From Nitratidesulfovibrio sp. SRB-5 (GTDB taxonomy: Bacteria > Desulfobacterota > Desulfovibrionia > Desulfovibrionales > Desulfovibrionaceae), in the NCBI RefSeq assembly GCF_019931275.1, contig NZ_JAIOTY010000005.1, positions 1 to 64,000 on the forward strand: a DNA stretch of 64,000 nt. The letters run 5' to 3'. Shown piece after piece: positions 16,567 to 28,565 of the stretch. The translations under genes and the position numbers were made by a program. A model generated the notes under the pieces. That model made no database searches. It saw only the letters and a list, made by a program, of their open reading frames with translations, and had not been told where the DNA came from. Within the stretch, counting starts at the first letter, position 1. Each line of letters starts with the position of its first letter.

Positions 16567-17565
16567 TTACAGCCTGCTGTCAATGACGTCGCCCGCATGC
16601 AGGCGATGTTCGCGCCCATCGGCATCCACCAGGCGCAGCAGGCCGTCGGGATCGACGTCGGCCACCAGCCCTTCCACCACGCCGTGCGGCGTGCCCACCC
16701 GCAGGGGGGTGCCGATGATGGCGGAAAGCTCCTTCCAGCGGGCGATGACCGGGCCGGGGTCGCCCTCGCGCAGGGCGGCGTACCAGTGCTCGGCCCGTTC
16801 CAGAAAGGCGCGCAGCACGTCCACCCGCGACACGGGGCGGCCCAGTTCCGCCGCCAGCGATGTGGCCTTGCCGCGCAGGTCTTCGGGCAGGTCCTCGACG
16901 CGGGTGTTCACGTTGATGCCCGCGCCGGTGACCACGTGGGACACGGCATCGGCCACCAGGGCCACCTCGGTCAGGTTGCCCGACACCTTGCGGCCATGCA
17001 GCAGCACGTCGTTGGGCCATTTGGCGCGCGGGGCAAGACCGGTGACCTCGGCCACCGCCTCGGCCACGGCCACGGCGGTCATCAGGGTGACCAGCGGCGC
17101 GGCCTGCGGGGCAAGACGAGGCCGCAGCACCAGCGAAACGTACACCCCCACCCCGGCGGGCGACGCCCAGACGCGACCGGCGCGTCCGCGTCCGGCGGTC
17201 TGCGCCGATGCCGCCACCACGGTGCCTTCGGGGGCACCGCCCAGGGCCAGCAGCGCGGCCTCGCGGTTGGTGGATTCGGTGGATTCGTGCAGGACAAAAT
17301 CTCCCTGCCCGAAACAGCGGGTGCGCAGCCCCCGGCGGACCCCGTCAACGGTCAGCACGTCGGCTTCGGCCAGCATCCGGTATCCCCGGCGGGTCATGGC
17401 CTCGATCTGGTGCCCTTCGCCGCGCAGCGTCCGCACGTGCTTGGCCACGGCGGCCCGGCTTACGCCAAGCAACCGTGAAAGTTCCTCTCCCGATCGCCAG
17501 TTGCCGCCCGCTTCGCGCAACATGGCGAACACACGACCCTTCGTGGGCGTCCTGTCTGTGTCCAC
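16567..17565 (-). CDS. birA: Bifunctional biotin-protein ligase and biotin operon repressor
   Basis: This 332-residue protein attaches biotin to carboxylase carrier domains and, as biotinyl-AMP holo-repressor, shuts off biotin genes. The N-terminal winged helix (about 8-62) contains LLGVSRAAVAKHVRTL. The ligase domain has the biotin-AMP loop GRGRAGRVW (125-133) and KWPND (182-186), with a C-terminal SH3-like domain. The start is GTG at 17565. No Shine-Dalgarno is visible, and the BirA operator lies only 5 bases upstream, so the mRNA may be leaderless or the start may be internal. It diverges from bioB across that operator, implying autoregulation. Confidence 0.95.
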   Translation of the reverse strand: MDTDRTPTKGRVFAMLREAGGNWRSGEELSRLLGVSRAAVAKHVRTLRGEGHQIEAMTRRGYRMLAEADVLTVDGVRRGLRTRCFGQGDFVLHESTESTNREAALLALGGAPEGTVVAASAQTAGRGRAGRVWASPAGVGVYVSLVLRPRLAPQAAPLVTLMTAVAVAEAVAEVTGLAPRAKWPNDVLLHGRKVSGNLTEVALVADAVSHVVTGAGINVNTRVEDLPEDLRGKATSLAAELGRPVSRVDVLRAFLERAEHWYAALREGDPGPVIARWKELSAIIGTPLRVGTPHGVVEGLVADVDPDGLLRLVDADGREHRLHAGDVIDSRL

Positions 17566-17570
17566 GGCGA

Positions 17571-17625
17571 TTGTAAACCATCAGGCAATTGCTTGGTTGA
17601 CAAAAAGGAACACGCCCGCTACTCG
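17571..17625 (+). promoter_or_regulatory. BirA operator overlapping the bioB promoter
   Basis: TTGTAAACC at 17571-17579 and GGTTGACAA at 17595-17603 are separated by 15 bases. This fits the bacterial BirA consensus TTGTAAACC-N14/15-GGTTTACAA with one mismatch. The right arm contains a perfect -35 box, TTGACA (17597-17602), followed after 17 bases by a weak -10, TACTCG (17620-17625). Bound BirA would therefore cover the bioB promoter and the start of birA at once. Confidence 0.92.
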
Positions 17626-17661: not shown

Positions 17662-18756
17662 ATGAACCCCCTGCTGGAACGTCTGTGCGCGCGCCTTTCG
17701 GACACCATTCCCCCCGGAACGGAAACTCCGTACGCATCGCCAAGCCACGCCCGCACGGAGGAAGCCCCCTGGTCCGGCATCACCGGAGAAGAGGCGCTCG
17801 CCGTGGCGCGGCTGCCCGCGTCCGACATCCTGGACATCCTGGCCGTGGCGCAGGCCGTGCGTTCGGCCCACAAGGGGCCGTTGGCGACCACTTGCGGCAT
17901 CGTCAACGCCAAGTCGGGCCGGTGCGGCGAGGATTGCGCCTTTTGCGCCCAATCGTCGCACCACGACACGGGTGCCCCGGTGCATGCGCTGCTCGGCCCC
18001 GACGCGTTGCTGCGCCATGCGGAAGAACTGGCCCGCGCGGGGGTGCGCCGCTTCGGCATCGTGACCAGCGGCAACGCCCTTTCGGAACGGGAGTTCGACG
18101 CGGTCTGCCATGCGGCGCGCCTGCTGCGCGACCGTGTGGACATCGGCCTGTGCGCCTCCCTGGGGCAACTCGCCACCGGGTCCGCCGAGAGCGGAAACCG
18201 GGGAGAACGAGCGCGCCGCCTGAAGGACGCAGGCATCTCCAGCTACCACCACAATCTTGAAACGGCCAGAAGTTTTTTCCCGCAGGTATGTACCACACAC
18301 CCTTACGACGACGACATGGCCACCGTGCGCGAGGCCGCGCGGGCGGGTCTGCGCACCTGTTGCGGCGGCATCCTGGGCCTTGGCGAAACGTGGGAACACC
18401 GCGTGGAACTGGCCCTGACCCTGCGTGAACTGGACGTGGACTCCATCCCGCTGAACTTCCTGCATCCCGTTCCGGGCACACGGCTGGGCCACCGCAGTCC
18501 GCTGCCCCCCATGGAGGCCCTGCGGGCCATTGCCGTGTTCCGGCTGCTTCACCCGCAGCGGGACATACTGGTGTGCGGCGGGCGCGAGACGACCCTTGGC
18601 CAGTGGCAGTCGTGGGTATTCGCCGCCGGGGCCAACGGGCTGATGGTGGGCAACTACCTGACCACGGCGGGCCGCGCCCTTGCCGACGACATGGAGATGC
18701 TGGCCGCGCTGGGCGTGGGCGAAATTTCCCGCAAAGGCGAGGGGGCACGGGCATGA
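17662..18756 (+). CDS. bioB: Biotin synthase
   Basis: The 364-residue radical-SAM enzyme inserts sulfur into dethiobiotin. The SAM-cluster motif is C88-x3-C92-x2-C95 (RCGEDCAFC). Segments expected for the second cluster are present (GLCASLGQL, YHHNLETA, CCGGILGLGE). Length is slightly above the 320-350 norm because of an N-terminal extension of about 30 residues. AGGAG stands about 12 bases before the ATG. It is the first gene of the BirA-controlled operon, and its stop overlaps the bioA start as ATGA. Confidence 0.97.
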   Translation: MNPLLERLCARLSDTIPPGTETPYASPSHARTEEAPWSGITGEEALAVARLPASDILDILAVAQAVRSAHKGPLATTCGIVNAKSGRCGEDCAFCAQSSHHDTGAPVHALLGPDALLRHAEELARAGVRRFGIVTSGNALSEREFDAVCHAARLLRDRVDIGLCASLGQLATGSAESGNRGERARRLKDAGISSYHHNLETARSFFPQVCTTHPYDDDMATVREAARAGLRTCCGGILGLGETWEHRVELALTLRELDVDSIPLNFLHPVPGTRLGHRSPLPPMEALRAIAVFRLLHPQRDILVCGGRETTLGQWQSWVFAAGANGLMVGNYLTTAGRALADDMEMLAALGVGEISRKGEGARA

Positions 18757-20246
18757 GCGGACGGACCATGGATACCGGCATGCCCGGAGCGGCCCCCACT
18801 CCCCCCGCCGCAACGGACGCCACCCTGCGCCTGCGCGCGCTGGACAAGGCCCACGTGTGGCACCCCTTCACCCAGATGCGCGACTGGCTGGCGGCGGACC
18901 CGCTGGTCATCGCCGCCGCCGAAGGCAACCGGCTCACGGACACCGACGGCGTGTCCTATCTGGACGGAGTTTCCTCGCTGTGGACCAACGTGCACGGACA
19001 TCGCCACCCCCGGCTGGACGCGGCCATCCGCGCGCAACTGGACAAGGTGGCCCACACCACCTTGCTGGGGCTGGGCAGCGAACCATCCATAGAACTGGCG
19101 GCGCGCCTTGCCGCCATCGCCCCGCAGGGGCTGACGCGGGCATTCTATTCCGACAGCGGGTCCACGTCGGTGGAGGTGGCGCTGAAGATCGCCTTCCAGT
19201 TTCACCGTCAGGCCCCGGCGCATCTGGGTGGAGACGCCCGGCGCACCCGCTTTCTCAGCCTGCGCAACGCCTACCATGGCGACACGGTGGGCGCCGTGGC
19301 CCTGGGCGGCATGGCCCTGTTCCATTCCATCTATGCGCCGCTGCTGTTCGACACGGTGAAGGCGGAAAGCCCGTACTGCTACCGCTGCCCCTTCGGGCGG
19401 CAGGCCGAGGCGTGCGAGCGGGAATGCATCACCCACATGGAAACGCTGTTCGCCCGGCACGGCCACGAACTGTGCGCCGCCGTGGTGGAACCGCTGGTGC
19501 AGGGCGCGGCGGGCATGCTGTTGCAGCCCCCCGGCTGGCTGCGTCGGGTGCGCGAACTGTGCGACGAGCACGGGGTTTTCCTGGTGGCGGACGAGGTGGC
19601 CGTGGGCTTCGGCAAGACCGGCACCCTGTTCGCCTGCGAGCAGGAAGGGGTGGCGCCCGACTTCCTGTGCCTGGCCAAGGGCATTTCCGGCGGCTACCTG
19701 CCGCTGGCCGCCACCCTGACCACCGAGCGGGTGCACGACGGCTTTCTGGCCCGCCACGAGGAACTGCGCACCTTCTTCCACGGCCACACCTACACCGGCA
19801 ACCCGCTGGCCTGCGCGGCGGCCATCGCCTCGCTGGACGTGTTCGAGGAAGAGCGGGTGATGGAACGGCTGCAACCGAAGATCGCCCGGCTGGCCGCGCG
19901 GCTGGATACGCTGCGCGACCTGCCCCACGTGGGGGACATTCGCCAGCGCGGCGTGATGACCGGCATCGAGATGGTGCGGAACCGCGCAACGAAGGACCCC
20001 TACGATCTGGCCCAACGCATGGGCCACCGGGTGACCCTGGAGGCGCGGCGGCGCGGGGTGATCGTCCGACCGCTGGGCGACGTGATGGTGCTCATGCCGC
20101 CCCTGTCCATCACCGACGAGGAGATCGACCTGCTGGTGGACGCCACGGGCGAGGCCATCCGCGCGGTGACCGAGCGCGGGGCCACCGGCGGATTGGACAT
20201 GCCGAACGGATTTGGCGGCCTGCCGCCCGCGCCGGGGGTGGCATGA
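18753..20246 (+). CDS. bioA: Adenosylmethionine-8-amino-7-oxononanoate (DAPA) aminotransferase
   Basis: The 497-residue PLP enzyme converts KAPA to DAPA using SAM as amino donor. It has the conserved WHPFTQM near the N-terminus (36-42), the PLP-contacting D280 in [10 protein letters not shown], and the Schiff-base K309 in [12 protein letters not shown]. An insert with five Cys (about 208-225) is unusual in position but does not break motifs. The ATG at 18753 overlaps the bioB stop, and its own stop overlaps the next start (ATGA). It is longer than E. coli BioA (about 430) through terminal extensions at both ends. Confidence 0.96.
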
Positions 20247-20722
20247 CCGCCACGGCAGACACGCACCCCACCGTACGGAGCGGGGTGTTCCGGTTCGACC
20301 CGGCCCACCCGCTGTTCGTGGATCATTTCCCCGGCGCCCCCGTGGTGCCGGGGTCGTGCATCGTGCAGGCCTTTGCGGACGAAGCGTCGCGCTGGGCCCG
20401 CGAGCACGCTCGGGGCGACGGTCCGGATGGCCGCCTGCCCGAAGAGACGCCGCACGAGGCATGCGCGGCGCCCGCACTACACCCCGTACGCCCCGTACGT
20501 GAAATGCGCGGGTTCCGCTTCCGGCGCTTCGTGACCCCGGGGGACTACGGCTTTCGCATGGAATGCACACGCGACGGCCTGCGCTGCTCGCTGCACGCGC
20601 TGCCGCACGGGCACGCCGGTGCGGCGGGGCACGGGACGAACGGGCCGGAAGCATCAGGCGGACCGGACGCCACGGCAGGCCCCGCCCTTGCCCCCCTGGT
20701 CACCGGGGTGCTGGCGTGGTAG
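20243..20722 (+). CDS. FabZ-like hotdog subunit 1 (keeps catalytic His, lacks Glu)
   Basis: The product is 159 residues. HPLFVDHFPGAPVVPG at 22-37 is the signature loop of 3-hydroxyacyl-ACP dehydratases with catalytic H28. FRFRRFVTPGDYGFRMEC further on matches the FabZ strand carrying PGD. At the place of the catalytic Glu (six residues after PVVPG) stands Q42. It also lacks the usual N-terminal RFLLLDR strand. In FabZ the His and Glu of one active site come from two subunits, so this protein could work with hotdog subunit 2 (23480-24019), which keeps Glu and lacks His. Start and stop overlap both neighbours. The middle (50-70) and the C-terminus are poorly conserved linkers. Confidence 0.8.
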   Translation: MTATADTHPTVRSGVFRFDPAHPLFVDHFPGAPVVPGSCIVQAFADEASRWAREHARGDGPDGRLPEETPHEACAAPALHPVRPVREMRGFRFRRFVTPGDYGFRMECTRDGLRCSLHALPHGHAGAAGHGTNGPEASGGPDATAGPALAPLVTGVLAW

Positions 20723-21546
20723 CCGCCGCCGGATCGCCCTCCCGCCTGCGCGGCCCCGTGCTCATCGCCGGGGGCACGTGCGAACTGGGGCTGGCCCTGG
20801 GGGCGACGCTGGCCGCCGACGGCATGGGCGTGGCCCTGACCGCGCGCGATGCGGCGGGCGCGGCGCGCATCCACGCGGCCCTGCCGGAAGCGACGGTACT
20901 GCGCCTGCACGCGCGCGGGCCGGAACGGAACACCGCCGGACAGGATTTCACCACGCCGCCTGCAATCGACGGAGCGGACGCCGAAAACGACACCCCGGAA
21001 ACCCTGCCCGAACGCGCCCGCGCGGCACTGGGCGAGGCGCCCCGGCTGTTCGTGGACCTGCTGCATTCGCGCTTCGAATGCCTGCTGGCCGGGGCGGACC
21101 CCGCCGACATCGACCTGTGGGCCGCGCGCGACATCGCCTTTCGCGCCCGGCTGCTGCGGGCCGTCAGCCGATCCATGCTGGCCGCGCGCGACGGGCGGTG
21201 CGTGTTCGTCTCGTCCTCCGCCGCAGAGCGGGCCGCGCCGGGGCAGGGCTACTACGCCGCCGCCAAGCTGGCCGGAGAAGCCCTGTACCGCGCCGTGGGC
21301 GTGGAACTGGCCCCGCGCGGGGTCACCGCCTGTTCGCTGCGGCTGGGCTGGCTGGATGCGGGCCGGGGCGCGCCGTTCCTGCAATCCCGTGCCGCAGACG
21401 CCCCCCTGCCGCCCACCGGGCGTACCGTGACCGTTGCCGAGGCCGTACAGACCCTGCGCTTTCTGCTGACCGCCCCGGCCACGGCCATCAACGCCACCAC
21501 CCTGACCTGCGACGGCGGCTTCGGCGCGCTGAAACCGGCCAGCTGA
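20716..21546 (+). CDS. SDR-family 3-oxoacyl-ACP reductase-like protein of the biotin cluster
   Basis: A 276-residue short-chain dehydrogenase. The dinucleotide-binding turn reads GGTCELGLALG (19-29). The catalytic set is Ser at 166-168 (VFVSSSA), Y180 and K184 (YAAAK), and the C-terminus has the typical TLTCDGGFGAL. The best start is GTG at 20716, overlapping the previous stop by 7 bases. A Pro/Thr-rich stretch at about 70-100 replaces the usual compact cofactor-domain strands. By context it would reduce 3-oxoacyl-ACP intermediates on the way to pimeloyl-ACP. It could instead be an inactive or differently specific SDR. Confidence 0.82.
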   Translation: MVAAAGSPSRLRGPVLIAGGTCELGLALGATLAADGMGVALTARDAAGAARIHAALPEATVLRLHARGPERNTAGQDFTTPPAIDGADAENDTPETLPERARAALGEAPRLFVDLLHSRFECLLAGADPADIDLWAARDIAFRARLLRAVSRSMLAARDGRCVFVSSSAAERAAPGQGYYAAAKLAGEALYRAVGVELAPRGVTACSLRLGWLDAGRGAPFLQSRAADAPLPPTGRTVTVAEAVQTLRFLLTAPATAINATTLTCDGGFGALKPAS

Positions 21547-21624
21547 CGCCAACGCCCGCACGCCCACGCACCGGCAAGGCCCCCTTCACCCTCCCTTTGC
21601 ATCAAACCCCACAGGCAGAACACC

Positions 21625-22047
21625 ATGCCCTCACATATCCGACACCAACCGCACGACTCGCACGACATTGTAGCGGCCATAGCCGCGCTGGTGGCCCCCA
21701 TCTTCGACGTGGACGCAGCCACCCTGTCGCCCGCCACCCGGCTTATGGCCGACCTGCCCTGCGAATCCATCGACCTGCTGGAAATCGGCGCGGGGCTGAA
21801 CCGCCGCTTCGCCATTCCCGTGCGCGATGCCGCCGCCTTTCTCACCGACCTGCGCATCCACGTGCTGGAGGCGGAACGCACCGGCGAAGCGCCCGCAGCC
21901 CGGCTGGCGCGGGAATATCCGCACCTGTCCGCCGCCCGCGTGGCGGAGGTGCTGGCGGCGGTGCGCGTGCCCGGCGCGCCCCCGGTGCTGACCATCGGTG
22001 ATGTGGCGGCGTACGTGGCGTGGTCCCTGACGCGAAACAACGGATAG
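21625..22047 (+). CDS. Dedicated acyl carrier protein of the biotin cluster
   Basis: The product is 140 residues against about 80 for a normal ACP. The 4-phosphopantetheine site is S48 in LPCESIDLLEIG; the usual Asp-Ser-Leu is Glu-Ser-Ile here. The region up to residue about 68 covers helices I-III. The final TIGDVAAYVAWSL looks like helix IV. Between them lies an unusual insert of about 45 residues (75-120). The gene follows the SDR after 78 bases and precedes the ketosynthase. A specialised carrier in the same operon suggests that pimelate assembly is kept apart from housekeeping fatty acid synthesis. Confidence 0.82.
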   Translation: MPSHIRHQPHDSHDIVAAIAALVAPIFDVDAATLSPATRLMADLPCESIDLLEIGAGLNRRFAIPVRDAAAFLTDLRIHVLEAERTGEAPAARLAREYPHLSAARVAEVLAAVRVPGAPPVLTIGDVAAYVAWSLTRNNG

Positions 22048-22088
22048 CCGGTCCGGACGGCACCGCCGCGCCGAGGCCCGACAAACAC

Positions 22089-23483
22089 ATGCAGCCGCCC
22101 TCTTCTCCCTTCCATCCCCCCCGCCGCGTGGTCATCACCGGCGCGGGCGCGGTAACCCCGCTGGGGCACACCCCGCAGGACATGGCGCGCGCCATCCGCG
22201 AGGGGCGCAGCCCGTTCCGCCATGCCCCGGCCCTGCCCGGCGCGGCCTGCGCCCCGGTGCCGGACTTCGACGCCGCAACGGCCACCGGACGCTGGCGGCA
22301 CCGCCGCTATCTTTCGCGCGGGGGGCAACTGGCCCTTGCCGCCGCCCTGACCGCCACCCGGCAGGCCGGATACGCCTGTGACAATGGGACCGGGGGGACC
22401 GGGGGCACAGGGGGAATCAGGGGAATGGGGAGAGCGGGCGACACCGGCTCCGCAACGGGCGACGGCGGCACGCCCCTCCTGCCCCGCCTTCCGGACGACA
22501 CCGCGCTGGTGGCCGCCAGCGGCCCCAACATGGACGTGGGGGCGGACTTTCCCGCCGCGTGCGCACCGCGCACAGGGGACTACGCCGCACTATCCGGTCT
22601 GGAACACCCCGATCTGGACGCCCTGTGGATGCTGCGCTGGCTGCCCAACACCGCCGCCTCCGCCGTGGCCATGCGCTGCGGCGTCCGGGGCGAAGGGCTG
22701 GTGCTGGGCACGGCCTGCGCCGCCTCGTTGCAGGCCGTGGGCGAGGCCGCCCGGCGGGTGCGCTGGGGCCTTGCCCCGGCGGCGCTGGCCGTGGGGGGCG
22801 ATTCGCGCCTGTCGGAAGGGGGATTGCTGGGCTACGCCCGCGCCGGGGCCATCCAGCGCGACATGGACCCCGCCGACGCCGACGCACCGCACCGCGCCTG
22901 CCGCCCCTTCGACGCCGCGCGGCGCGGCTTCGTGCCCGGCGAGGGAGGCGCCGCCTTCGTGCTGGAGCCGCTGGACACGGCGCTGGCCCGCAGGGCCACG
23001 CCACTGGCCGAAGTGCTGGGCATGGGGGCCACGCTGGACGGCCATGCCCTGACCGCCCCGGAACCCGACGCCCGCCGGGCCGAGGCCGCCGTGCGCGGCG
23101 CGCTGGCCGAAGCGGGGCTTGCCCCCGGCGACGTGCACTGGGTGGCGGCCCACGGCACCGGCACCGCCCTCAACGACGCGGCGGAAATCCGCCTGCTGGA
23201 ACGGCTGTTCGCCGACGCGGGCCACGCCCCCGCCGTCACCGCCGTGAAGTCGTGGACCGGGCACTGCGCCTCGGCCTGCGGCGCGGTGGAACTGGCCGTC
23301 CTGCTGGCCTGCGCGGCGGACGGCTTTCTGCCGCCGGTGCGCAACCTGACCACGCCGGAGAGCGCGCGGCTGGATTTCGTGCGTCAACCACGCCCATTGC
23401 CCGCTTCCGGCAAGGGTTCCATCGGCTTGCTGCTCAATTTCGGCTTCGGCGGGCAGAACGCCGCGCTGGTGGTGCGGCTGTGA
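22089..23483 (+). CDS. Beta-ketoacyl-ACP synthase (FabF-like) of the biotin cluster
   Basis: The 464-residue condensing enzyme has the complete KAS I/II triad: C210 (GTACAAS), H355 (AAHGTGT) and H392 (SWTGHCAS), with K387 between. NFGFGGQNAALV closes the fold. A Gly/Thr-rich low-complexity insert lies at about 99-128. I chose the ATG at 22089; a GTG at 22020, inside the ACP gene, would add 23 residues. The stop overlaps the next start (GTGA). By context it would extend malonyl- or glutaryl-type starters by two carbons to reach the C7 chain. Which primer it accepts is not visible. Confidence 0.88.
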   Translation: MQPPSSPFHPPRRVVITGAGAVTPLGHTPQDMARAIREGRSPFRHAPALPGAACAPVPDFDAATATGRWRHRRYLSRGGQLALAAALTATRQAGYACDNGTGGTGGTGGIRGMGRAGDTGSATGDGGTPLLPRLPDDTALVAASGPNMDVGADFPAACAPRTGDYAALSGLEHPDLDALWMLRWLPNTAASAVAMRCGVRGEGLVLGTACAASLQAVGEAARRVRWGLAPAALAVGGDSRLSEGGLLGYARAGAIQRDMDPADADAPHRACRPFDAARRGFVPGEGGAAFVLEPLDTALARRATPLAEVLGMGATLDGHALTAPEPDARRAEAAVRGALAEAGLAPGDVHWVAAHGTGTALNDAAEIRLLERLFADAGHAPAVTAVKSWTGHCASACGAVELAVLLACAADGFLPPVRNLTTPESARLDFVRQPRPLPASGKGSIGLLLNFGFGGQNAALVVRL

Positions 23484-24019
23484 CCCTTTTCCGCCACGCC
23501 CTTCCGGAGGAAACTCCGGACCGCTTCCTGCTGCTGGACCGACTGGACAGTTGCGACGAAACCGGAGCCACGGCCCGCCGCGCCTTCACCGCCGCGCCCC
23601 CGTGGCAGGGGCTGGAAGCCATGGCCCAATTGGCCGCGCTGCACGCCCGATGGACAGCCGACTTCAAGCTGCACGCCTTTCTGCTGACGGTGGAGGAATG
23701 CACCTGGCCGGACCACGTACCGGCAGCCGACATGCGCCCTGACATGCGCCCCGGCATGCCACGCCTCACACCGGGCGGCGCACTGCGCGGCACCCTGCGC
23801 ATTGGGGCCTGCCTGCTGGCCGAAAGCGACCGCGCGGCCACCTACGCGACCACCATCACACCCCTGCCAGCATTCTCCGACGCGGCCCTCGCGCCTGCGC
23901 CCCCCTGCATGGCCGCCACCCTGACCATTGGCCGCACGGCCTACGACACCCGCTTCAACGGCGACACACTCACCGCCCGTTATCGAGAGACCTTCGCATG
24001 GCTGACCAGAACCGCCTGA
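23480..24019 (+). CDS. FabZ-like hotdog subunit 2 (keeps catalytic Glu, lacks His loop)
   Basis: This 179-residue protein opens like FabZ (PDRFLLLDRLDS at 13-24) and has the helix start QGLEAMAQLAALHARW with E46 and Q50, where FabZ has its catalytic Glu. The HFPGxPVxPG loop that should precede it is replaced by the shorter AFTAAPPWQG, so the catalytic His is missing. The rest fits a hotdog C-terminal half (GTLRIGACLLAE). It complements hotdog subunit 1, which has the His loop but no Glu. The start is GTG overlapping the ketosynthase stop. A short DMRPDMRPGM repeat at about 83-92 is low complexity. Function is inferred. Confidence 0.7.
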   Translation: MTLFRHALPEETPDRFLLLDRLDSCDETGATARRAFTAAPPWQGLEAMAQLAALHARWTADFKLHAFLLTVEECTWPDHVPAADMRPDMRPGMPRLTPGGALRGTLRIGACLLAESDRAATYATTITPLPAFSDAALAPAPPCMAATLTIGRTAYDTRFNGDTLTARYRETFAWLTRTA

Positions 24020-25431
24020 CCGACCCCCAACTGTCCGGCCCTGACTCGTCTGGCCCTGACATGTCTGCCCCTGACATGTCTGCCCCTGACATGTCCGGCG
24101 CAACGCCCGCCGCCGCGCCGCCCCCGGCGTCTCCCGGCCTGCTGGCCGCGCGCCTGGCCCTGCGGGTGGAGGAACTGCACGCAGCAGGCCTTGGCCGCAA
24201 CGCGCTGCCGCTGGACGGGCTGCCCGCGCCCACGCCGCGCAGCGCCGCCGGGCAGTCTCCCTCCCCGGCGCTGGTGCGCATGGAGGGGCGTCCGCTGCTC
24301 CATTTCGCGGGCAACGATTATCTGGGCCTTGCCGCCGACGGGGAATGGCGGGCCACGGTGGCCGCCTGCTTCGCCCGCCACGCCCCCTCGGGCACGGCCT
24401 CGCGTCTGGCCGCCGGGCACACCGCCCTGACGGCAGAGGCAGAGGCGGCCTGGGCCGACTACTTCGGCTATGCCGAGTGCCTGTTCCTGCCCAGCGGGTA
24501 TCAGGCCAACCTGGCCCTGTTGTGGGGGCTGCTGGGGCACGGCGATGCCGTGTTCCTGGACCGCCGGGTGCACGCCAGCATGGCCCACGCCCTGCCCCCC
24601 ACCGGGGCGCGCCTGCACACCCACCGCCACGCGGACATGGACGACCTGTCGCGCCGTCTGGCCGCGTGGCGGCACAACAGCGACAACGACAGCTGCGGCA
24701 ACGACGGCCCACCCGCCTGCGGGACGGCCTGCGCGCCACAGCCCGTGGTCCTGGCCGAATCGCTGTACAGCATGGACGGCACCCTGCCGGACATGGCCCG
24801 CCTGGGCGCGGTGACCCGCGAACACGGGGCCTTCGTCATCGTGGACGAGGCCCACGCCTTCGGCGCGCTGGGCGCGGGCGGACGCGGGCGGGCGCACGGC
24901 GTGGCCGACGTGGCCGTGGGCACGCTGGGCAAGGCGCTGGGGCTGTTCGGTGCCTTCCTGCTGCTGCCGCGCGGCACCCGGAACGCACTGGAAAACCTGG
25001 CCTCGCCGCTGATCCACTCCACCGCCCTGCCGGAAGCGCACGCAGCCTGCTGCCTGGCCCTGCTGGACCTGCTGCCCCGTCTGGATGACCGCCGCCACCA
25101 CCTTGCCGCGCTGGGCGCGGCCCTGCGCACCGGGCTGCGCGCCGAAGGGGTGCCCGCCCGCGAGGGCGCCCACGTGGTGTGCGTGGACGTGGGCGACGAG
25201 GACCGCTGCACCCGCCTTGCGGCAAGGCTGCGCACCCCCGCGGATGGCGGCCCCGGCGTGCTGGCCCTGGCCGCGCGCCACCCCACCGTGCCGCGCGGCG
25301 CGGCAACGCTGCGCCTTGGCCTTACCGCCCTGCACCGGGTGGACGACGTGGCCCGCTGCGTGGACCTGCTGGCCCGCGCCTGGAAAGAAGAGGAAGAGAA
25401 GCGGGGCGATACGCCCGGAGATCAATCATGA
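23998..25431 (+). CDS. bioF: 8-amino-7-oxononanoate (KAPA) synthase
   Basis: The 477-residue PLP enzyme condenses a pimeloyl thioester with alanine to give KAPA. Conserved parts are FAGNDYLGLA (103-112), SGTASRLAAGHT (131-142), D283 in VDEAHAFG and the PLP lysine K312 in GTLGKALG. It is about 90 residues longer than usual. The first about 45 residues form a Ser/Gly/Pro/Asp-rich tail containing a 15-bp tandem repeat (24031-24090), and there is a low-complexity loop at about 226-248. It starts 22 bases inside the previous gene; its stop overlaps the bioD start. Confidence 0.94.
   Translation: MADQNRLTDPQLSGPDSSGPDMSAPDMSAPDMSGATPAAAPPPASPGLLAARLALRVEELHAAGLGRNALPLDGLPAPTPRSAAGQSPSPALVRMEGRPLLHFAGNDYLGLAADGEWRATVAACFARHAPSGTASRLAAGHTALTAEAEAAWADYFGYAECLFLPSGYQANLALLWGLLGHGDAVFLDRRVHASMAHALPPTGARLHTHRHADMDDLSRRLAAWRHNSDNDSCGNDGPPACGTACAPQPVVLAESLYSMDGTLPDMARLGAVTREHGAFVIVDEAHAFGALGAGGRGRAHGVADVAVGTLGKALGLFGAFLLLPRGTRNALENLASPLIHSTALPEAHAACCLALLDLLPRLDDRRHHLAALGAALRTGLRAEGVPAREGAHVVCVDVGDEDRCTRLAARLRTPADGGPGVLALAARHPTVPRGAATLRLGLTALHRVDDVARCVDLLARAWKEEEEKRGDTPGDQS
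24031..24100 (+). repeat. 15-bp tandem repeat inside bioF
   Basis: Four 15-bp units starting at 24031, 24046, 24061 and 24076 plus a partial fifth encode repeating (M/S)-S-(G/A)-P-D. Units 3 and 4 are identical. It extends the non-conserved N-terminal tail of BioF without changing the frame. Confidence 0.9.
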
Positions 25432-26171
25432 ACGCAATGAACCAGCCCCCCTCCCGAGCCCTGTTCGTGGTGGGCACGGACACGGGCGTGGGCAAGACGG
25501 TGGTTTCGATGCTGCTGCTGCGCGAACTGTTTGCGCGGGGGGAGCGGCCCTTCTACGCCAAGCCCATGCAGACCGGGTGCAAGACCCCGTACGACGCGGA
25601 CAGCGACGCGGCCTTCGTGTACCGGCACGTTCCGGAACTGGCCGGGCGCGACCCGGCGGAAGCGGTGGGGTGGTGCTTTGCGGCGCCTAAGGCTCCGCTC
25701 CACGCCGCGCGGGACGAAATGCGCGGCGTGGAGACGGAAGACCTGGTGCGCAGTCTGGCATGTCTGCGCAGTGAACACGCCTCTCTGGTCCTCGAAGGCG
25801 CGGGCGGCCTGATGGTGCCGTTCACGCCGGAGGCCCTGTGCATCGACTGCATCCGGGCCGCCGACGCCCGTCCCGTGCTGGTGGCGCGGGCGGGACTGGG
25901 CACCGTGAACCACACGCTCCTCTCGGTGGAGGCGCTGGTCCGGAGAGGGATGGAACCGGCAGGGATCGTTTTCGTTCACACCAAGGAACGTTCCGCATCC
26001 CCGGACCTTGTGCGGGACAACATGGAGGCGGTAGCCATGCTGTCCGGTTTTCCGGTGAGCGGCGTGGTGCCGCCCATCGAAAATCTGCTGCATCCGCCCG
26101 ACGCCGCCTTCGCGCCCTTGCGGCGCATGCTCGACGTGCCGGACGGGGCGGACGCAGTGGTAACCGGCTAA
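25428..26171 (+). CDS. bioD: Dethiobiotin synthetase
   Basis: This 247-residue ATP-dependent carboxylase closes the ureido ring of dethiobiotin from DAPA and CO2. The P-loop GTDTGVGKT (16-24) and EGAGGLMVPF are diagnostic. The ATG at 25428 overlaps the bioF stop (ATGA). It is the last gene of the operon and is followed by a long palindromic element before convergent lysA. Confidence 0.96.
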   Translation: MNAMNQPPSRALFVVGTDTGVGKTVVSMLLLRELFARGERPFYAKPMQTGCKTPYDADSDAAFVYRHVPELAGRDPAEAVGWCFAAPKAPLHAARDEMRGVETEDLVRSLACLRSEHASLVLEGAGGLMVPFTPEALCIDCIRAADARPVLVARAGLGTVNHTLLSVEALVRRGMEPAGIVFVHTKERSASPDLVRDNMEAVAMLSGFPVSGVVPPIENLLHPPDAAFAPLRRMLDVPDGADAVVTG

Positions 26172-27767: not shown

Positions 27768-28565
27768 TCAGTTGTCAGAAACGGGGTCCGTCCCGGTGTC
27801 ATTCATCGAGCCCGGCATCGAGCCTGGCATCGAGCCCGGCATCGAGCCCGGCATCGAGCCCGGCATGGCGGCCCGGATACGGATCAGCTCCATTTCATGA
27901 AGTATGGCCTCGCGCATCAGGTACACCAGGTGCTCGTTGCGCGAATACAGGCAGCGCCCGCTCACGCCCGGCTCCAGCAGGCCCGCGATGACCTCGCTGG
28001 TATCGGCTATGAGCTTCACGTGGCCGGTGCCCGCCTGATTCTTCAGAAAGGTGGCCCCGGCGATGCCCGGCTCCGCATTGGACAGCAGCACCACCTTCAG
28101 CCCCCGCGCCACGCAGTCGTCGAACTCGCGCCGGAACAGCGCCACGTTGTCCGCGTGCATGGATGCGTACACCCGCAGCCGCGCCAGGTGCAGCATGTTG
28201 CGGATCTTGTCCTCGGTGTTGCGCAGGCCCGCCACGGTCAGATAGGGCGTCTCGTCCGGCTCGGTGTCCGGCAGGTTGGCTTCAAGGAAGGCCAGCGTGC
28301 CCTCGGCATCGCGCCGCAGGTTCAGCAGCAGTTCCTCTCGCGGGACGGCCATGTAGCGACTGGTGTCGCCGCTGGCCACAACGGCCCCGCCTTTCTCCAC
28401 CAGGCTCGACAGCGCCGCGTAAGCGTTGGAGCGCGAAATTCCGGCGGCCTTGGCCGCCTCGTACCCGGTCATGGGATTCTGGCCCGCATGCCGCAGCAGG
28501 GTGAGGTACATCAACGATTCCTGCTGGGTGAAACCGAACTTGCGCAAAGCCTGAATGAGTTCCAT
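27768..28565 (-). CDS. TrmB-type transcriptional regulator
   Basis: The 265-residue regulator has an N-terminal winged helix (LRKFGFTQQESLMYLTLLR; AAKAAGISRSNAYAALSSLVEKG) as in TrmB proteins, and a C-terminal effector domain (KVVLLSNAEPGIAG; YSRNEHLVYLM). The last about 35 residues contain five PGSM repeats made by a 12-bp minisatellite. The ATG at 28565 has AAGGAAG upstream. It diverges from the M20 amidohydrolase gene and may control it. Known TrmB ligands are sugars; the ligand here is unknown. Confidence 0.85.
   Translation of the reverse strand: MELIQALRKFGFTQQESLMYLTLLRHAGQNPMTGYEAAKAAGISRSNAYAALSSLVEKGGAVVASGDTSRYMAVPREELLLNLRRDAEGTLAFLEANLPDTEPDETPYLTVAGLRNTEDKIRNMLHLARLRVYASMHADNVALFRREFDDCVARGLKVVLLSNAEPGIAGATFLKNQAGTGHVKLIADTSEVIAGLLEPGVSGRCLYSRNEHLVYLMREAILHEMELIRIRAAMPGSMPGSMPGSMPGSMPGSMNDTGTDPVSDN
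27804..27863 (-). repeat. 12-bp tandem repeat in the 3-prime end of the TrmB-like gene
   Basis: Five 12-bp units at 27804, 27816, 27828, 27840 and 27852, differing by one base in one unit, encode repeated Pro-Gly-Ser-Met near the C-terminus. Unit number can change without shifting the frame. Confidence 0.93.

Follow-up and report, generated by a model that had tools for sequence, protein, structure and literature searches.

The window analysed here is the whole 64,000-nucleotide stretch of Nitratidesulfovibrio sp. SRB-5 DNA. Its operon is a Desulfovibrio-type biotin cluster, in which the bio genes flank FabZ-like, SDR, ACP, ketosynthase (KS) and FabZ-like genes under BirA. The gene types match those of the cluster DVU2558-DVU2565 in PMC10102598 and PMC545781. 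By gene order, the two FabZ-like hotdog proteins are the counterparts of DVU2560 (hotdog 1, hd1) and DORF42491 (hotdog 2, hd2). The features are as follows:

16567-17565, minus strand: birA (Pfam BPL_LplA_LipB, E = 5.3e-21, and HTH_11)
17571-17603, plus strand: BirA operator-like palindrome, 1 mismatch to the PMC545781 consensus (0/100 shuffles match)
17662-18756, plus strand: bioB (Pfam BATS, E = 2.4e-26; Radical_SAM, E = 2.8e-19)
18753-20246, plus strand: bioA (Pfam Aminotran_3, E = 8.8e-103)
20243-20722, plus strand: hd1, putative His-loop subunit, 159 aa; His28 is invariant, and Gln42 stands where the catalytic Glu would be
20716-21546, plus strand: 3-oxoacyl-ACP reductase-like SDR, YxxxK motif YYAAAK (Pfam adh_short_C2, E = 3.7e-17)
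21625-22047, plus strand: specialised acyl carrier protein (18.4 bits against Pfam PP-binding, whose cut-off is 20.8, and E = 1.5e-5 against NCBIfam ACP; both are below cut-off)
22089-23483, plus strand: FabF-like KS (E = 3.8e-74 against TIGR03150 fabF, without reaching the equivalog cut-off)
23480-24019, plus strand: hd2, putative Glu/acyl-pocket subunit, 179 aa, with invariant Glu46 and Arg57 and without a His loop
23998-25431, plus strand: bioF (Pfam Aminotran_1_2, E = 5.4e-30)
25428-26171, plus strand: bioD (Pfam AAA_26, E = 2.6e-39; start and frame verified)

The palindrome lies between birA and the biotin operon. Neighbouring genes overlap by 4 bases (bioA/hd1 and KS/hd2) or 22 bases (hd2/bioF), and hd1 overlaps the SDR start at 20716; these overlaps bear out an earlier sequence-only reading, which placed both hotdog genes in one tightly overlapping operon. 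In the KS translation, GTACAAS contains a Cys that resembles an active-site residue, and there are two His motifs. Pfam and NCBIfam scans of the operon genes found a KS, a reductase and an ACP, and no dehydratase besides the two hotdogs.

Both proteins had been taken for FabZ-type hotdogs, and this assignment held, for hd1 by Pfam FabA and for hd2 by profile comparison. The hd1 protein passes Pfam FabA (PF07977) with 25.1 bits (cut-off 23), and all 24 aligned hd1 rows match this family at E<=1; Pfam ApeI-like was matched at the same threshold by 7/24 rows (best 2.7e-4). It falls below the NCBIfam FabZ cut-offs, with 26.1 bits vs 155 (TIGR01750) and 25.7 vs 113 (NF000582). For hd2 itself, neither Pfam nor NCBIfam gave a match at E<=1; of 26 orthologs, four have weak NCBIfam FabZ matches (best E = 0.043) and none matches Pfam ApeP-like. 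Since these libraries give no strong match, the kinship of hd2 rests on profiles. The hd2 profile matched the FabZ structure PDB 8ayd (E = 0.0025) with Glu aligned on Glu, and the hhalign single-pair E-value of hd2 against FabZ was 9.2e-9; the hd2 Glu falls on the catalytic Glu of FabZ, and the alignment is gapless through the position eleven residues further on (E+11). The hd2 profile also covers the N-terminal segment of FabZ, a region that precedes the start of the hd1 alignment. In single-pair comparisons, hd1 matched ApeI (3e-10) and hd2 matched ApeP (7.5e-7); the crosswise values were 0.0074 (hd1-ApeP) and 0.16 (hd2-ApeI), and that of hd1-hd2 was 0.1. Single-chain structure models were poor for both, with a mean pLDDT of 33.6 for hd2 (3 close sequences) and 49.1 for hd1 (2 close sequences).

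The residues described for the two window proteins are present in the frames and at the coordinates listed above: hd1 has H28 in HFPGAPVVPG and Gln42 fourteen residues later (H+14), and hd2 has E46 in LEAMAQ with no His-loop motif N-terminal of it. Neither protein thus combines, on one chain, the His of an HFPG loop with Glu at H+14. Among relatives retrieved with profiles in which the catalytic His or Glu was already conserved, the His was kept in 64/64 hd1 and Glu46 in all 67 hd2 of the genomes read. No conserved His precedes Glu46: across the 60 preceding columns, His occurs in at most 9 of 68 rows in any column. The H+14 position of hd1 is occupied by ten different residues (E18, H11, G10, Q9, A8, D4, K1, S1, N1 and R1; n = 64), so that Glu is missing in 46/64 and any acid in 42/64. 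On a 57-genome tree it changed at least 14 times, six of them between acid and non-acid. The variability of this column is middling, 36 of the 85 hd1 columns being more variable. The FabZ paralogs used as controls kept both His and Glu in 18/18. These controls (17 from 16 of the 67 genomes and one from G403) all score above the NCBIfam NF000582 cut-off of 113 bits; they were partly picked by a Glu-requiring motif, and rechecking by family score and profile matches left the result unchanged. The residue pattern of hd1 and hd2 is more than chance.

The hd1 gene was detected in 64 of the 67 hd2-bearing genomes, and was not found in G018, G553 and G624 (84-91% complete). Fourteen of the 64 lay outside the stretch first read, 13 on a different contig and one (G577) on the same contig; many of the assemblies were broken at that place. 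In G594 and G590, hd1 is separate from SDR-ACP-KS-hd2. This separation and the three genomes without a detected hd1 count against the pairing. No hd1-hd2 fusion occurred in the clusters read, and the only frame matching both profiles was a FabZ (L143). This frame, from G403, and L144 of G495 were excluded from the counts despite matching the hd2 profile, as was L194 of G624, a different hotdog (Met at H+14, no NCBIfam match). Eight weak matches in the phylum (G172, G194, G274, G286, G292, G335, G481 and G494) and one at order level (G699) were also kept outside the 67. L144 of G495 is an ApeP-like hotdog adjoining two KS genes.

The sequence-only reading also proposed strict co-occurrence of the two residue losses as a test, and this test fails: Glu is retained in 18/64 hd1 and Asp stands in its place in four more, and hd1 homodimers could therefore be complete in those lineages. 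Strict co-loss was dropped as a criterion for this reason. Retention of Glu by hd1 or of His by hd2 had been named as refuting the pairing; the former was seen in these 18 hd1 and counts against it, the latter was never seen. As hd2 never regains the His, the expectation of a single complete site of mixed origin still stands. Overall, the split-site pairing is partly supported. The invariant Arg57 of hd2 lies at E+11, and the equivalent FabZ position lines the tunnel. Arg57 was considered as a hallmark of hd2, a view tempered by the presence of Arg at E+11 in one of 17 FabZ (L175) and in PDB 8ayd.

The reciprocal invariance of His in hd1 and Glu in hd2, their co-occurrence and the intact FabZ paralogs fit what would be expected of an obligate heterodimer; the parallel with ApeI/ApeP and the fitness data published for the cluster lend further support. 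We therefore propose, with fairly good confidence, that the two proteins make up an obligate heterodimer, a FabZ-type 3-hydroxyacyl-ACP dehydratase for biotin with one composite site. In such a dimer, hd1 would give the HFPG loop with His28. The hd2 subunit would give Glu46 from its central helix, together with the two elements that shape the FabZ acyl pocket, the N-terminal segment and the helix face. The opposite site would be inactive, since hd2 lacks a His loop and the acid position of hd1 is unconstrained. The dehydratase would serve a methyl-ester-free route from malonyl-ACP to pimeloyl-ACP. We infer the pairing of the two proteins, the activity of the pair and its substrates, 3-hydroxyglutaryl-ACP and 3-hydroxypimeloyl-ACP; more speculatively, Arg57 may hold the free omega-carboxylate. 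The residues, conservation, co-occurrence and profiles come from this analysis; the FabZ geometry, the requirement in D. vulgaris and ApeI/ApeP come from published papers.

Other arrangements of the two hotdogs are less probable. With its HFPG loop intact and its clearer membership of the FabA/FabZ family, hd1 might act as a homodimeric dehydratase, using the His alone or with the H+14 residue, while hd2 is non-catalytic, for example in ACP docking or as a scaffold. The 18 hd1 that retain Glu agree with this, but the Glu gone from 46/64 hd1 is invariant in 67/67 hd2, where a scaffold would not need it, and the hd2 profile matches the N-terminal segment of FabZ ahead of the start of the hd1 alignment; we regard this explanation as unlikely. 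Each hotdog might instead pair with a canonical FabZ, giving hybrid dimers for the biotin intermediates. Both hotdogs are FabZ-like and the genome itself encodes a complete FabZ (L154). However, hd1 with FabZ and hd2 with FabZ would each make one site, which leaves complementary subunits co-occurring in 64/67 genomes unnecessary, and direct pairing has been described for ApeI/ApeP; such hybrids seem quite improbable. It is more improbable still that one or both hotdogs perform another chemistry, for example with hd1 as a separate enzyme and hd2 as a homodimer that binds acyl groups or resembles a thioesterase. In favour of this, the hd2 protein has no family match of its own and its orthologs at most weak ones, and its invariant Arg57 is missing in three ApeP rows and 16/17 FabZ; but its Glu aligns without gaps on the catalytic Glu of FabZ, and the operon genes scanned supply a KS, a reductase and an ACP without another dehydratase.

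The composite-site dehydratase would be a concrete and testable candidate for the dehydration step in pimelate synthesis. The D. vulgaris cluster is required in the absence of biotin according to fitness data, and both hotdog genes are named there (PMC10102598). Transposon phenotypes can be polar, which tells against the proposal. The cluster genes were called FabZ-like in 2023 (PMC10102598), and a hydroxymyristoyl-ACP dehydratase homolog was listed in 2004 (PMC545781); in the excerpts of these two papers, the literature found on this cluster, a split site is not mentioned. PMC10102598 leaves open how Desulfovibrio-type anaerobes make the pimelate moiety by a route free of methyl esters. The proposal specifies a residue to mutate in each protein and would account for the need of both FabZ-like genes. 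It also suggests that recruitment of FabZ to unusual substrates can give rise to split-site dehydratases. A further and only tentative reading gives this vitamin pathway a split-site dehydratase of its own. Dividing the site over two subunits would have freed hd2 to rebuild the acyl pocket around the invariant Arg57, so as to accept free-acid 3-hydroxyglutaryl- and 3-hydroxypimeloyl-ACP. If true, it would account for pimeloyl-ACP made without the BioC/BioH methyl-ester disguise.

Profile comparison places hd1 and hd2 in the same hotdog family as FabZ. The FabZ site consists of His58 and Glu72' from two subunits (PMC2692856), in agreement with the geometry assumed earlier, and Ile20-His23, Gly79 and Phe83 are given as pocket residues alongside Glu72. 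Each FabZ chain carries both residues and a dimer has two sites, whereas hd1 and hd2 have half each in most lineages. The mycobacterial HadAB/HadBC had been cited as a precedent, and these are indeed heterodimeric hotdog dehydratases with a single site; however, the His-Asp dyad lies entirely in HadB, and HadA binds the substrate (PMC4491049). Labour is thus divided with the dyad unsplit, whereas the invariant His and Glu of hd1/hd2 lie on different proteins. HadAB was rejected as a model, being a poor analogue because the whole dyad is in HadB.

The aryl polyene enzymes ApeI/ApeP are a better precedent. One paper treats them as a heterodimer that has only one active site, a description based on sequence comparison and co-expression of the pair rather than on a structure (PMC8041823); another regards them as seemingly duplicated functions (PMC8253772). 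Both points limit the weight of this precedent. As in hd1/hd2, one subunit has the His loop and the other the Glu without a His loop, the cluster also encodes KS, KR and ACP, and the profiles pair hd1 with ApeI and hd2 with ApeP, not crosswise. This kind of split is therefore not new; the earlier statement that none was described in biotin synthesis stands for the literature found. There are also differences. Three ApeI of clear pairs have an acid at H+14 (D, D and E), whereas 42/64 hd1 have a non-acid; a less certain ApeI-like hotdog below the Pfam ApeI cut-off (L157) has Asn there, and this difference is thus one of degree. At E+11, three ApeP have Gly and hd2 has Arg, and Pfam ApeP-like recognizes none of the 26 hd2 compared. 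Moreover, ApeI/ApeP belong to a pigment pathway, whereas hd1/hd2 belong to a vitamin pathway with dicarboxylate intermediates.

The biotin operon runs in the order bioB, bioA, hotdog 1, an SDR reductase, an ACP, a FabF-like ketosynthase (KS), hotdog 2, bioF and bioD, with mostly overlapping genes; birA is divergent and located upstream. The relevant features are:

17571-17603: BirA operator-like palindrome between birA and bioB, one mismatch against the published consensus
20243-20722, plus strand: hotdog 1, FabZ-like
23480-24019, plus strand: hotdog 2, FabZ-like

The locus corresponds to the extended biotin operon described for Desulfovibrio in 2004 (PMC545781), and two Desulfovibrio sp. records (L146 and L147) are the nearest named loci to the genome studied here. 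In the 2023 transposon-fitness paper on D. vulgaris (PMC10102598), DVU2560 and DORF42491 were called FabZ-like, and ten genes were important without biotin, nine of them within DVU2558-DVU2565; we count these nine as DORF42491 and the eight genes that carry numbers. The gene order suggests that DVU2560 and DORF42491 are the counterparts of hotdog 1 and hotdog 2. Tandem repeats encoding DMS/MRP-rich stretches are located at the start of bioF (24032-24097, period 15/30) and inside hotdog 2 (23727-23759, period 12). Another tandem 12-mer (27804-27866, 5.2 copies) lies in a minus-strand ORF, where it encodes an MPGS repeat close to the C-terminus.

The sequence-only reading of complementary catalytic residues in the two hotdogs was borne out. 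Hotdog 1 has H28 within the HFPG loop and Gln42 at the FabZ Glu position, 14 residues further on; hotdog 2 has Glu46 within LEAMAQ and lacks the His loop. The hhalign alignment of hotdog 2 with FabZ shows two gaps in hotdog 2 exactly at the His-loop site, one of 11 residues and one of 3, which indicates that the loop is missing rather than point-mutated. Both His and Glu are present in the FabZ encoded elsewhere in this genome (L154). Hotdog 1 of this genus also contains Ala/Gly/Pro-rich inserts of variable length (residues about 55-85 and 121-150), which are absent from most hotdog 1 proteins of other genera.

A single-query search of 150 genomes of the order gave 20 matching genomes for hotdog 1 and 29 for hotdog 2, FabZ matches being counted in. 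With the profile A2, built from 26 hotdog 2 orthologs, 63 of 348 genomes matched in the order and 17 of 395 in the phylum. The final hotdog 2 sample comprised 67 genomes (62 of the 63 from the order and 5 from outside); nine weak profile matches were left out, and G403 (FabZ) and G495 (ApeP-like) were excluded, both being read as something else. The ApeP-like hotdog of G495 (L144:3847-4344) adjoins two ketosynthase genes, resembling a type II polyketide cluster. Hotdog 1 was first recovered for 58 of the 67 genomes, and a genome-wide search of the other nine added six, giving 64 of 67. In 14 genomes, hotdog 1 was located beyond the stretch that was read first. The genome-wide search did not find it in G018, G553 and G624, which are 84, 91 and 86% complete. 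At the edge of a contig, G624 carries part of a further hotdog of the HFPG type (L194:1-309), with Met at the Glu position and no NCBIfam match. In G594 (L115/L166) and G590 (L126/L165), hotdog 1 is on a separate contig from SDR-ACP-KS-hotdog 2, which has several kb upstream without hotdog 1; the contigs of G595 and G591 stop upstream of these genes, and the two genomes were not counted as having hotdog 1 set apart. Outside the order, G506 (L145) has a complete but very divergent bioA-hotdog 1-SDR-ACP-KS-hotdog 2-bioF cluster, with Asp at the Glu position of hotdog 1.

In hotdog 2, Glu46 and Arg57 were each kept in 67/67 genomes and His55 in 62/67, and none of the 60 columns preceding Glu46 had His in more than 9 of 68 rows. 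The catalytic His of hotdog 1 was present in 64/64, and the residue 14 positions beyond it was Glu (18), His (11), Gly (10), Gln (9), Ala (8), Asp (4), or Lys, Ser, Asn or Arg (one each). The strict joint loss of the hotdog 1 Glu and the hotdog 2 His was thus not found, as Glu stays in 18 of 64, which counts against the wording of the sequence-only reading. On a tree of KS and hotdog 2 (57 of the 58 genomes; G577 was omitted, as the stretch read from it contained no KS match), this position changed at least 14 times, six of them between acid and non-acid; 36 of 85 hotdog 1 columns vary more. Both His and Glu were present in all 18 FabZ controls above the NCBIfam FabZ cut-off of 113 bits (17 from 16 hotdog 2 genomes, one from G403).

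The FabZ site combines His58 of one subunit with Glu72' of the other (PMC2692856). In a heterodimer with one live site, hotdog 1 would give the His and hotdog 2 the Glu; the live-site residue would be fixed in each protein, and the dead-site residue free (hotdog 1) or deleted (hotdog 2). In hhalign, the match of the hotdog 2 profile to FabZ begins at the N-terminal PFLLVDRV segment and extends through the Glu helix; the alignment of hotdog 1 begins only shortly before the His loop. Read with these spans, the residue conservation is the selective pattern expected from such a heterodimer, which suggests that the two proteins pair. Where hotdog 1 bears Glu (15 of the 18 belong to genus g3), its homodimer might work alone; hotdog 2 is retained in these genomes, with Glu and without His. 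By numbering (72+11), Arg57 of hotdog 2 corresponds to Phe83 of H. pylori FabZ, which is listed with Ile20, Leu21, Pro22, His23 and Gly79 as a pocket residue together with Glu72 (PMC2692856). A positive charge here would suit a pathway with free-acid intermediates; the active sites of these enzymes were speculated to be less hydrophobic (PMC10102598). Arg also occurs at this position in 1/17 FabZ (L175) and in PDB 8ayd, and is therefore not unique to hotdog 2.

No paper on a split-site dehydratase in biotin synthesis was recognised in the titles, abstracts and some passages covered (subscription journals mostly fell outside). HadAB, cited before as a heterodimeric dehydratase, is unlike the hotdog pair, since the whole dyad is in HadB (PMC4491049). 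The closer likeness is to ApeI/ApeP of the aryl polyene clusters, a known kind of split, which one paper describes as a heterodimer with a single active site (PMC8041823). A second paper names ApeH-ApeP as the dehydratase (PMC8358021), and in a third, ApeI and ApeP are seemingly duplicated functions (PMC8253772). In the pairs from Cupriavidus metallidurans, Pseudoalteromonas and G167 (same phylum), ApeP has the Glu without the His loop (3/3), and ApeI has the His, followed at the Glu position by Asp, Asp or Glu. In G163, an ApeP-like protein exceeds the Pfam cut-off; the ApeI-like hotdog of this genome, which has Asn at that position, falls short of it. Single-pair hhalign gave 3e-10 for hotdog 1-ApeI and 7.5e-7 for hotdog 2-ApeP, against 0.0074 (hotdog 1-ApeP) and 0.16 (hotdog 2-ApeI) crosswise; the values with FabZ were 3e-12 and 9.2e-9 for hotdog 1 and hotdog 2, respectively. 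The resemblance of the two pairs might reflect either shared descent or convergence.
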